Part shown: one piece after another, positions 52,542 through 56,171 of the stretch | Layout of the letters: the number at the start of each line of letters is the position of its first letter | How positions within the stretch are numbered: the first letter of the stretch is position 1 | Assembly (NCBI GenBank): GCA_035533475.1 | Contig: DATLTS010000025.1 | Coordinates: forward strand, 1-64,000 | DNA from: Mycobacteriales bacterium | Lineage (GTDB): Bacteria > Actinomycetota > Actinomycetes > DATLTS01 | Length of the DNA stretch: 64,000 nucleotides | Direction: 5' to 3' | Program-made: the position numbers and the translations under genes | The notes under the pieces: model-generated | Told to the model about the DNA's origin: nothing | The model's input: only the letters and a program-made list of their open reading frames with translations | Databases searched by the model: none

Positions 52542-53264
52542 TTAGGACACGCCGCCGGCGCCGAAGAGGTGGCCGATTCCGAACGCCACCGAGGCGGTCA
52601 CCGCCCCGAGCAGAAGCTGCCGGAGGCCGCTCACCAGCCAGGACCGGCGGGTGAACCGGGTGACCGCCGAGCCGAGCAGGAACAGTCCCACGCCGGCGAG
52701 GAGCATCGAGACTCCCAACGTGCGGGCCCCGAACAGGTAGGGCAGCAGCGGGACGACCGCCCCCACCGCGAAGGACACCAGAGACGATCCGGCCGCCACG
52801 TACGGCGACGGCAGGTCGTCCGGGTCGACGCCGAGCTCCTCGCGGGCATGGATCCGCCACACCTGGTCGGGGTCCCGGGAGAGCACCTGCGCGACTTCCG
52901 CGGCCAGCTCGGCGTTGAGACCCCGGCGGCGGTACAGCATCGCCAGCTCGGCCTCCTCGGCCCGGGGCCGAGCCTGGATCTCGGCTCGCTCGACGGCGAT
53001 CTCCGCCATCGTCGCCTCGGTCTGCGACGAGACCGACGTGTACTCGCCGACCGCCATCGAACAGGCTCCGGCGACCAGCCCGGCCAGCCCGGTCAGCGCC
53101 ACCGTGTGCGCCGAGACGTGGGCGCCGGCAACGCCGGCGATCAGGGCGAAGTTCGACACCAGCCCGTCCATCGCCCCGAACACCGCCGGCCGCAACGCAC
53201 CACCGGTGACGTCGCGATGACCGTGCGCCGAATGGGCCTCAGCGGCCTGGGTCGGACTGCTCAC
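52542..53264 (-). CDS. VIT1/CCC1-family transporter
   Basis: Membrane protein of the vacuolar iron transporter family, 240 residues, with about five membrane segments. Motifs include [20 protein letters not shown] near 30-49, [20 protein letters not shown] near 64, a long cytoplasmic helix bundle rich in Glu (where metal is bound in the plant protein), and C-terminal hydrophobic hairpins. It probably exports Fe2+ or Mn2+. The GTG at 53264 overlaps the lgt end by 26 bases; a close internal start would also be possible. It lies between lgt and gltB. Confidence 0.87.
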
Positions 53265-54108
53265 CGCTCCAGGGTACGGGGGTGTCGGTCGAAGCCACGC
53301 CGGCCGACGCATCGGTGCCGTCATCCATGACGAGCCGCTCCCGCGGACCGCGGCGCACCACCAGGAACGTCACGGCGCCGAGAAACACGGCAATGCTGGT
53401 CCAGTCGTTGAGCCGAAGTCCGAAAAAGTGGTTGGCGTGGTCGATCCGGAGTGCCTCGATCCACCCACGCCCGACGGTGTACACGGCAACGTAGAGCGCG
53501 AACGCACGGCCCCGGCCGAGCCGGAAGCGCCGGTCGGCCCAGATGACCAGGGCCGCGACACCGATGTCCCACAGCGATTCGTAGAGGAACGTCGGCTGGA
53601 AATGGCCCGGCTGGCCGCTGACCGTAAGACCCCAGGGCAGGCTCGTATGTCCCCCGTACAACTCCTGGTTGAAGTAGTTGCCGAACCGGCCGATCCCCTG
53701 CCCGATCGCGATGCCCGGGGCGGCGGCGTCCGCAAACGAGGCGAGGGAGACTCCGTATCGCTTGCAGGCGATGTAGGCGCCCAGCGCGCCGGCGGCGACG
53801 GCCCCCCAGATCCCCAGGCCGCCGTGCCAGATCTCGAACGCCCCCACCCAGTCCTTGCCCTTGGGGAAGTAGAGCTCGGGGTCGGTGGCGACGTGGTAGA
53901 GCCGGGCGCCGACCAGGCCGAAGGGGATCGCCCAGGTGGCGATGTCGGCGGTCACCCCGGGCCGGGCGCCGCGCGCGGTGAACCGGCGTTCGGTCACGAA
54001 GAAGGCGAGGACAACTCCGGCGATGATGCATAGCGCGTAGGCGCGGATCGGCACGGGACCGAGGTGCAGAACGCTGCCCGGGGGGCTGGGAATGTAGGCG
54101 GGTCTCAT
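53239..54108 (-). CDS. lgt: Prolipoprotein diacylglyceryl transferase
   Basis: First enzyme of lipoprotein maturation: adds diacylglycerol to the lipobox cysteine, for example on the OppA and LivK proteins of this window. It has IWHGGLGIWGAVAAG near 93, the Lgt signature GQGIGRFGNYFNQELYGG near 138, GRGWIEALRIDHANHFFG near 215 and about seven membrane segments. The ATG at 54108 is preferred over the adjacent GTG at 54111 (289 or 290 residues). The acidic C-terminal tail is variable. Confidence 0.96.
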   Translation of the reverse strand: MRPAYIPSPPGSVLHLGPVPIRAYALCIIAGVVLAFFVTERRFTARGARPGVTADIATWAIPFGLVGARLYHVATDPELYFPKGKDWVGAFEIWHGGLGIWGAVAAGALGAYIACKRYGVSLASFADAAAPGIAIGQGIGRFGNYFNQELYGGHTSLPWGLTVSGQPGHFQPTFLYESLWDIGVAALVIWADRRFRLGRGRAFALYVAVYTVGRGWIEALRIDHANHFFGLRLNDWTSIAVFLGAVTFLVVRRGPRERLVMDDGTDASAGVASTDTPVPWSGEQSDPGR

Positions 54109-54140
54109 CACGGTTCACGCTACGGCACGGCCGGATCCGC

Positions 54141-55451
54141 TCAGCTGAACGTGTGCCCGATCCAGGTCAGCCCGCCGTCGCGGGTGGTCTCGACGGTTAC
54201 CCGGGCCACGATCACCCGCCCGTACCGCGGGTCCTCGAAGCCCAGTGCGGCGAACTCGGTGCCGGTGAGCTTCCCTTCGGCGGGCGCGGCGAGCCGGGCG
54301 GACCAGGTCCGACCGGCGTCGGTGCTGACGTACAACGACGGGGGGACGTCGAGGACGAGGACACCGGCTCGCGGGGAAGCCAGGGAGATCGGTCGCAGGA
54401 CCGCGGGCAACGGGCGCAGCGGCCCGAACCTGTCGCCGGCGTCGGTCGATGCGACCACGGCATCCGTGCCGGAACCAGAGCTGGCGGAGCAGAGCACGGC
54501 TAGGTACCCGCCTTGCGCCCCGGTGAGGTCGACGACGCTGCGATGGAAGGCCACGCAGGGGTCGACGATCCGGTTCCAGCGGTCACTCATCCCGCCGTCG
54601 TCGGAGCGGTAGAGCTCGCTGACCGGGCCGATCCCCGCGACGTACACCCGGTCGCCGCCGTCCCGGACCACCCTGGTGGTCGCCCCGTGCACGACCAGGC
54701 CGGTCGGCCGGAAGGCCGCCGTCCCGACCGCGGCTTCCTCGACCGCGCAGCCGGCGTCGCAGCTGCCCGATCCGGCTGACCCGATGATCGCCACGGCGGT
54801 CCCACCGGCCACCTCGAGGGCGGACACCGTGCCGTCGATCGGCTGACGCTGCCAGGTGTCGCCGCCGTCGGTCGTGATGAACAGGTCGGGCCCATACGCG
54901 TAGCCGTTCCAGTGATCGGCGAAACGCAGGTGACCGACGCACGGCCGTCCCGGGCGGCAGGAGAACTCGGCCAGGTCGGCGTGCGGCGCCGGGATCCCCA
55001 CCCAGCTCGCACCACCGTCGGAGGTCCTGACCAGCGAGGTGCAGAAGCCGCTTGCGCAGGTCCCGGGGGTCGTTCCGAGCCCCCAGCCGTCCAGGTCGCT
55101 GACCCAGCTGAGGTCGACCAGTCCGAGATGTTCTGGCACGAAGGAGCCGGCCGGCGTGGGCCGGGCCGGCGACTGGGTCGCGCTCGGCGGCGCGGTGACC
55201 GGGACGCCGGGGGTTCCCTCGCCGATCGGGCGTTGCGCAGGCTGGGGGCGTGGCAAGCCACCGCCGATCGCGACCCCGACGACTACCGCCGCGGCAACCA
55301 GTGCGGCGGTGCTCATCGTGGTCATCGCCGCCCGCCACCGGCGGCGGTGGCGGGCCTGGCGTCGGATCCGCTCGAAGCGCGCCGGGCCGGGCGCCAACGG
55401 GATGACCGGCGGGCCGAGTCGGCGGCGCAGGTCATCGTCAGGTTCGACCAT
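54141..55451 (-). CDS. Membrane-anchored Asp-box (sialidase-like/Ycf48-like) beta-propeller protein
   Basis: The 436-residue protein has a short cytoplasmic N-terminus of about 40 residues rich in Arg, one membrane segment (TAALVAAAVVVGVAIGGG), a Pro-rich linker, then a secreted beta-propeller with six Asp-box-like repeats (RTSDGGASW, ITTDGGDTW, YRSDDGGMSDRW, STDAGDRFG, VSTDAGRTW, TTRDGGLTW). Cysteine pairs suggest disulfides. The ATG at 55451 overlaps the sigma-factor stop by 14 bases, so the two are cotranscribed. No anti-sigma zinc motif is visible; a surface sensor or regulator is plausible but unproven. Confidence 0.75.
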   Translation of the reverse strand: MVEPDDDLRRRLGPPVIPLAPGPARFERIRRQARHRRRWRAAMTTMSTAALVAAAVVVGVAIGGGLPRPQPAQRPIGEGTPGVPVTAPPSATQSPARPTPAGSFVPEHLGLVDLSWVSDLDGWGLGTTPGTCASGFCTSLVRTSDGGASWVGIPAPHADLAEFSCRPGRPCVGHLRFADHWNGYAYGPDLFITTDGGDTWQRQPIDGTVSALEVAGGTAVAIIGSAGSGSCDAGCAVEEAAVGTAAFRPTGLVVHGATTRVVRDGGDRVYVAGIGPVSELYRSDDGGMSDRWNRIVDPCVAFHRSVVDLTGAQGGYLAVLCSASSGSGTDAVVASTDAGDRFGPLRPLPAVLRPISLASPRAGVLVLDVPPSLYVSTDAGRTWSARLAAPAEGKLTGTEFAALGFEDPRYGRVIVARVTVETTRDGGLTWIGHTFS

Positions 55452-55956
55452 CACGGTCCCCGAGTTGGGCGAGCAGCCGGGCACGCGCGTCGAACAGGTC
55501 GCTCTTCACGGTGCCCTCCGCCCGGCCGAGCAGGATCGCAACCCGCCTGACCGGGAGGTCGGCGTAGTAGTGGAGCAGCACCGGGAGCCGGAGCCGGTCC
55601 GGCAACGCCGCGACGAGCACCCGCAGCCCGACGTCACCGGCCGGGGTCGGGTCGAGCTCGTCGGGCGGCCCGATCCGGCGCAACGCACGGCGCTCGCGCT
55701 CCAGCTTGCGCCAACGGTCCCGAACCAGGTTCGCGGCAACGACGTAGAGGTAGCCACGGGGGTCGTCGACGCTGGACCACTTCGCGAGCAGCCGGGTGAA
55801 CGCCTCGGCCGCGATCTCGTGGGCCGTGTCGGCGTCGTCCACGAGGTTTCGGCACCAGCCGGCGAGCCTCGGGTAGTGCGCGGCGAACAGCTCGGCCGCG
55901 TCCGCATCGCGGGTACGACTTCGTACCAGCTCAGCCGACACCGCGAGCTCGGTCAC
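55438..55956 (-). CDS. RNA polymerase sigma factor, ECF-like (sigma-70 family)
   Basis: The 172-residue protein has region 2 ([18 protein letters not shown] through [19 protein letters not shown], residues about 18-65) and region 4 ([20 protein letters not shown] through [16 protein letters not shown], residues about 110-160), with no region 3, as in ECF or SigE-type factors. The GTG at 55956 has GGAG 6 bases upstream and is preferred to the one at 55986. It is the first gene of a two-gene unit with the Asp-box protein and is divergent from trpC. The regulon is unknown. Confidence 0.85.
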
Positions 55957-56171
55957 CTTCGGCTCCGGTCGGGCCCCACGTCTCACAGACGCCGCACCCC
56001 TCTCGCCGGTTGGCCAGCCACGTTCTACGCCCCCCGGGCCGACCCGGCCAATCCGACACGCGCCGAAGCGGCCGGCCGGCTCGCCGCTACCCTGGACCGA
56101 ACCCCGACCCCCCCGGCGCAGGGCCGGGGCGCGACCGCATCGCAGCGTCGAGGGAACTGGAGACCGGTCGC
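55957..56171. promoter_or_regulatory. Divergent region between the sigma factor and trpC
   Basis: These 215 bases hold the trpC promoter and leader. TACCCT at 56088-56093 fits a -10 (TANNNT) for trpC. In the leader a GC hairpin pairs ccccggc 56111-56117 with gccgggg 56123-56129. No Trp-codon leader peptide is evident. GGAG near 56158-56161 precedes the trpC GTG by about 10 bases. Confidence 0.35.

Follow-up and report, generated by a model that had tools for sequence, protein, structure and literature searches.

Why is the gene of a surface propeller protein joined to that of an ECF sigma factor? In the window, that is, the whole 64,000-nt stretch of contig DATLTS010000025.1 from a Mycobacteriales bacterium that was analysed here, the ATG at 55451 of a gene for a single-pass membrane protein overlaps the stop of a sigma factor gene by 14 nt, both on the minus strand (Table 1), and this overlap suggests that the two genes are co-transcribed. 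For many ECF sigma factors of actinobacteria, no regulator has been recognised. An earlier note on this DNA had proposed that the membrane protein might be a sensor controlling the sigma factor. The comparisons and structural models described below point the same way: the pair is probably a sigma/anti-sigma switch, in which the cytoplasmic tail of the membrane protein clamps the sigma factor and the propeller senses the outside.

Table 1 Features of the sigma factor locus, with positions in the window.
Feature	Positions	Strand	Basis
ECF sigma factor, SigE-family-like	55438..55956	(-)	Pfam r2 and r4, NCBIfam TIGR02983 and TIGR02937, sequence
Single-pass membrane protein, 436 aa, proposed anti-sigma factor with propeller	54141..55451	(-)	
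Cytoplasmic tail, residues 1-42, proposed minimal anti-sigma domain	55326..55451	(-)	Conserved in alignments A2 and A4
Membrane helix, residues ~43-65	55257..55325	(-)	Hydrophobic sequence
Extracytoplasmic Asp-box propeller, residues ~106-436	54144..55136	(-)	Pfam BNR, modelled strands, fold matches
Predicted ECF-type promoter AACC-N16-CGTCTG, upstream of the sigma gene	55986..56011	(-)	Exact sequence match
lgt, prolipoprotein diacylglyceryl transferase	53239..54111	(-)	Pfam LGT 6.8e-61

The sigma factor consists of domains 2 and 4 only, the composition of ECF (group 4) sigma factors: Pfam Sigma70_r2 (8.5e-11) and Sigma70_r4_2 (1.7e-10) match, no further sigma domain was found, and TIGR02937 scores above its cut-off. 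Together with the 14-nt overlap and the single membrane helix, these matches bear out the earlier description of an ECF-like sigma factor next to a single-pass protein. Against the NCBIfam SigE family model TIGR02983 the protein reaches 89.5 bits, below the curated cut-off of 141.55, and by that rule it would rank as a relative of the SigE family and not as a member. Its longest open reading frame begins at 55986; because the −10 box of the predicted promoter ends at this position and GGAG lies just upstream of the GTG at 55956, this GTG is the likely start.

The predicted promoter has counterparts in related loci. AACC and CGTC separated by a 16-nt spacer precede the sigma gene in 36 of 76 non-redundant discovery pairs, the set in which this spacer was first noticed. 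They do so in 7 of the 49 further pairs, also non-redundant, which form the independent part of the count. Other spacers between 8 and 25 nt were found at most three times (discovery) and twice (further), and the opposite strand yielded two occurrences and none, respectively. The element has the form of ECF promoters such as those in the sigma-E target list of PMC6767563, and the window sigma factor may well recognise AACC-N16-CGTCTG. A search of the host genome for this sequence returned four exact sites, compared with three for the reversed control, and we therefore claim no regulon.

From its N-terminus, the membrane protein comprises a basic tail of 42 residues and one hydrophobic helix, followed after a proline-rich linker by the Asp-box propeller; the basic residues on the tail side of the helix suggest that the N-terminus lies inside. 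Pfam BNR matches with an E-value of 1.4e-7, and six Asp-box-like repeats of the S-x-D-x-G-x-T-W type are readable in the sequence. An AlphaFold model (19-row alignment; mean pLDDT 81.5) places strands at residues 110-434, giving the propeller fold expected of Asp-box proteins, and helices at residues 4-12 and 23-58 in the tail region. Foldseek ranked Ycf48 first (E 1.1e-11), followed by GH74 enzymes and sortilin and, lower down, Streptomyces DAIP. The six-repeat extracellular propeller that had been read from the sequence is thus confirmed by domain match, repeats, modelled strands and fold matches alike, as is the absence of a known anti-sigma domain, since none of the Pfam and NCBIfam anti-sigma families scored above its cut-off in this protein.

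Fold similarity also bears on what the propeller does. We consider it very unlikely that the propeller acts as an enzyme (a glycoside hydrolase, for example) and not as a sensor: GH74 enzymes are among the fold matches and the F510_1955 glycosylhydrolase model matches weakly (24.6 bits against a cut-off of 175), but the best fold matches are Ycf48 structures, some of which contain a bound peptide according to their titles. Ycf48 is an assembly factor and not an enzyme. We know of no Ycf48 or sortilin propeller that is joined to an anti-sigma tail, although both share the Asp-box fold with the window protein. The sortilin propeller is described as binding peptides (PMC2716378). In the host genome, two paralogues of the propeller (L017 on contig C42 and L022 on contig C9) are apparent lipoproteins with no adjoining sigma gene, and the propeller therefore also exists alone. 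By eye, a further propeller lipoprotein (L003) seems to lie beside a trpA-like gene, reminiscent of the trp genes in the window.

If the tail is the part that acts on the sigma factor, it should be kept beside sigma genes wherever it occurs. We searched with a profile (A2) built from 14 tail-plus-membrane-helix sequences and containing no sigma sequence, which matched 192 of 296 genomes of the class at E ≤1e-3. At the first 30 loci, a sigma open reading frame ended at the tail in every case; 11 of these loci were training rows of the profile, so the remaining 19 of 19 are new, and the 11 were removed from the overall count. Among 106 listed matches examined further down (a few listed rows were left out), a sigma gene lay upstream on the same strand in 60 of 60 stronger cases (52 within 40 nt) and in 43 of 46 weaker ones (36 within 40 nt). 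In total, 122 of 125 non-training tail loci have a same-strand sigma gene just upstream, 107 of them within 40 nt, the opposite of the wide separation of the two genes in relatives that would have spoken against the earlier proposal. In 103 of 114 distinct pairs, the two genes are within 40 nt of each other. The arrangement seen most often, in 62 of the 114, is an overlap of precisely 4 nt. In one Streptomyces locus (L144), the tail gene seems to shift frame in mid-tail, and the partner may be broken there.

The association extends beyond the class. In a draw of 149 genomes from the phylum, mostly from other classes, 37 matched the tail profile at E ≤1e-6, and a sigma gene was present at 24 of the 27 loci examined. 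In the host genome itself, five of seven tail matches (E ≤1e-3) lie beside a sigma gene, with a sixth pair at E 0.006; the matches L197 and L198 have no adjoining sigma gene. Starting instead from the sigma factor, a scan of named genomes gave 29 relatives, 24 of which have an adjoining tail by HMM. Four of the other five show, by eye, a short basic tail and a membrane helix downstream, and the fifth is a distant Bradyrhizobium protein. Among 34 sigma matches taken later, the HMM found a tail in 21 and none was detectable in 13, of which some look like diverged tails and others may have other partners. Like anti-sigma factors generally, the tail gene is thus found directly downstream of, and co-inherited with, its sigma gene.

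What is conserved in the tail is a motif of two short helices, D-x-L-R-x-x-L and F/Y-x-x-I-R, linked by L-x-P-x-P. The tail had been described as arginine-rich, and arginine is indeed conserved; it is not the sole motif, since the other positions of these elements are kept as well. In a Pfam search of 60 tails, no family was found beyond stray matches in one or two members, and NCBIfam gave sub-threshold matches to CU044_5270 in 14 of the 60. This model (NF038083) matches 3 of 126 full tail proteins (best 1.2e-35), so that part of the tail class already carries this functionless name. Neither the term CU044_5270 nor the tail class was found in the literature searched; the 2021 ECF reclassification (10.1093/nar/gkaa1229) or the survey PMC4518836 may already list such partners as putative anti-sigma factors.

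The domains beyond the membrane are far less constant. In a Pfam census of 126 of the 168 non-redundant complete tail proteins, the Asp-box models, whose sets overlap, matched 14 (BNR), 12 (Sortilin-Vps10) and 9 (YCF48) proteins. Others carry DUF4232 (9), FG-GAP_3 (5), GerMN, Gmad2 or a carboxypeptidase-regulatory domain (3 each), BsuPI or PknH_C (2 each), and PASTA, PD40 or cupredoxin (1 each), and some tail proteins have no outer domain. The same exchange is seen among relatives of the window sigma factor: in Streptomyces (mostly 62-64% identical), the tail is followed by a short proline-rich outer part with no propeller, and relatives in Asanoa, Fodinicola and a Streptosporangiales bacterium carry the propeller. 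This swapping points to the sigma factor and the tail as the constant core, with the outer domain exchanged; the propeller would then be one sensor among several, outside the conserved core.

Conservation of this kind has to be weighed against a simpler account, in which the membrane protein is a surface product co-expressed with, and under the control of, the sigma factor, and its basic tail a mere topology signal. Topology by itself would account for basic residues ahead of a membrane helix, and the free host lipoproteins show the propeller without a sigma gene. However, D-x-L-R, L-x-P-x-P and I-R are conserved positions with no topology role, the tail survives loss or replacement of the outer domain, and matches to the tail alone adjoin a sigma gene almost throughout. 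We regard this account as quite unlikely. The sensor role proposed in the earlier note gains support from the same two observations, a tail kept beside the sigma gene and an outer domain that is swapped.

Precedents exist for so small an anti-sigma domain. Thermoanaerobacter tengcongensis belongs to another phylum than the window host. Its Tt-RpoE1/Tt-TolB pair resembles the window pair in that the downstream gene encodes a protein with a 39-residue cytoplasmic N-terminus and one membrane span (PMC3397946). As reported there, Tt-RpoE1, to which the window sigma factor can be likened, is an autoregulated ECF sigma factor, residues 1-39 of Tt-TolB bind it in a two-hybrid test, and Tt-TolB inhibits transcription (PMC3397946). 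The outer part of Tt-TolB is TolB-type (PMC3397946), in contrast to the Asp-box propeller of the window protein; a short tail, a membrane helix and a TolB-type outer domain acting as an anti-sigma factor are therefore already known. A second parallel is CnrY of Cupriavidus metallidurans, a class II anti-sigma factor (PDB 4CXF) that, like the window tail, has a very short two-helix cytoplasmic domain. The two predicted helices of the window protein form such a class II arrangement, a two-helix domain of fewer than 50 residues before the membrane helix, and the modelled window sigma factor is compact in the same way as CnrH, on which it superimposes with an rmsd of 3.0 over 140 residues. CnrY depends on another protein, CnrX, for sensing (PMC4598750), whereas the window protein unites sensor and tail in one chain. 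Membrane-bound sensing is further known from SigV/RsiV of Bacillus subtilis. RsiV is a membrane anti-sigma factor whose anti-sigma and outer domains differ from those of the window protein. Its outer domain is described as binding lysozyme directly (PMC4598750).

The window protein departs from class I anti-sigma factors, which have four helices over about 100 residues and known models: its tail has 42 residues and no Pfam match. Still, the tail could be a shrunken class I (RseA/RskA) domain, reduced to the last helix before the membrane and slotted between sigma domains 2 and 4 where a full domain would wrap around both. Among 60 tails, the anti-sigma model NF052375 matches 18 (best 8.3e-4) and RseA a single one, with every score well short of the cut-off, and an RseA match in the window protein covers residues 21-60. 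The window-tail matches fall mostly in the basic and membrane part, though, no Pfam anti-sigma family was matched, and some 42 residues compare with a class I average of 101 (PMC7406223), so that we hold a class I origin to be unlikely. The best reading of the tail is an unnamed minimal anti-sigma domain, similar to that of CnrY or to the Tt-TolB tail, which would work with exchangeable sensors.

Whether such a domain inhibits or activates is a separate matter, as the sign of regulation is not given by sequence alone. The membrane protein might activate its sigma factor, or both activate and inhibit it, for instance by delivering it to RNA polymerase on a signal; one study of RskA reportedly describes that protein as an activator-inhibitor. 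An anti-sigma factor is nevertheless the usual partner in this gene order (PMC8103513), and Tt-TolB, built to the same plan, inhibits (PMC3397946), which makes an activating role highly improbable.

Covariation between tail and sigma columns was used to ask whether the tail binds the sigma factor. We compared covariation for helix 1/domain 4 and helix 2/domain 2, the arrangement of CnrY on CnrH (PMC7406223), with that of the crossed combinations, a statistic chosen after the first data set. For 147 discovery pairs, the observed value was reached by none of 150 random and none of 150 broad-cluster re-pairings. The regions were set in advance for 60 new pairs; there the signal was weak, its value being reached by 9 of 300 random re-pairings and by 17 of 300 made within clusters. 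For both sets together, 0 of 300 and 1 of 300, respectively, reached it. The signal did not exceed tight-cluster re-pairing, which keeps nearly all of the pairing. Correlation between tail and sigma distances was rejected as evidence, as it was 0.76 overall and −0.02 where the sigma factors are less than 40% identical.

At one locus (L180, 1389-3410, minus strand), one open frame of 673 codons runs from the sigma factor through the tail and the membrane helix to the outer domain; such a fusion was seen in 1 of 393 genomes searched with the fused reading and is possibly a sequencing error. An AlphaFold model of fused sigma factor and tail, made from an alignment (A7) of sigma rows, this natural fusion and one in-frame pair (L182), had a mean pLDDT of 85.6 and a pTM of 0.66. 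It shows two tail helices, the helix-1 region at a pLDDT of only ~64, and a sigma factor as compact as in complexes with RsiW, CnrY and NepR. The covariation lends modest support to binding of the sigma factor by the tail. In a search of the PDB with the tail profile, no CnrY (up to E 10) or other anti-sigma chain was found; the complexes of CnrY and NepR can be superimposed although their sequences are not similar (PMC4598750), so the missing CnrY match says little. The best PDB sequence matches to the tail were dismissed as low-complexity or membrane stretches.

Taken as a sigma/anti-sigma switch, the locus could work as follows. The 42-residue tail, two short amphipathic helices with a proline-containing link, would clamp the sigma factor at the membrane the way CnrY does, with helix 1 against domain 4 and helix 2 against domain 2. 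Outside, the propeller would meet a ligand, which by analogy with Ycf48 and sortilin is most plausibly a peptide or protein; on contact, the tail would be released or cut and the sigma factor freed. The freed sigma factor would then transcribe its own operon from AACC-N16-CGTCTG, perhaps including lgt. That gene follows the membrane protein gene after 29 nt on the same strand and may share its transcript; the switch may therefore also drive lipoprotein maturation.

Neighbouring genes in relatives point to the cell surface as well. A sortase gene adjoins the pair in Streptomyces and Actinacidiphila relatives: three of ten neighbouring proteins scanned are sortases (one each in L055, L061 and L063). 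Genes for LytR-CpsA-Psr and DUF4232 proteins lie near the pair in a relative with the propeller (L054). A public record (L321) annotates a sortase, as class F, beside an orthologous sigma gene. In another locus (L016, 2700-3218), a second sigma-like open reading frame starts directly after the membrane protein gene, and tandem switches are possible there.

What appears to be new is the breadth of the tail class in Actinomycetota, its absence from Pfam, the exchange of its sensors and its combination with an Asp-box propeller. Three public Streptomyces plasmid records label the gene that follows the sigma gene 'hypothetical protein' (twice) or 'DUF4232 domain-containing protein' (once). We put forward, tentatively and with rather more doubt than confidence, that Actinomycetota possess an unnamed minimal anti-sigma class of about 40 residues and two helices that controls a large share of their SigE-family ECF sigma factors and became joined during evolution to many sensors, and that its member in the window is a surface receptor for extracellular peptides or proteins, with a Ycf48- or sortilin-like propeller, wired to lipoprotein maturation by lgt in the same operon. 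Should the tail prove to be an anti-sigma domain, a regulator could be assigned to hundreds of switches from one short motif, and the outer domain of each would hint at its likely class of signal. The class as a whole could be tested on a single tail-sigma complex, and a tail of this size lends itself to two-hybrid tests and to orthogonal synthetic switches.
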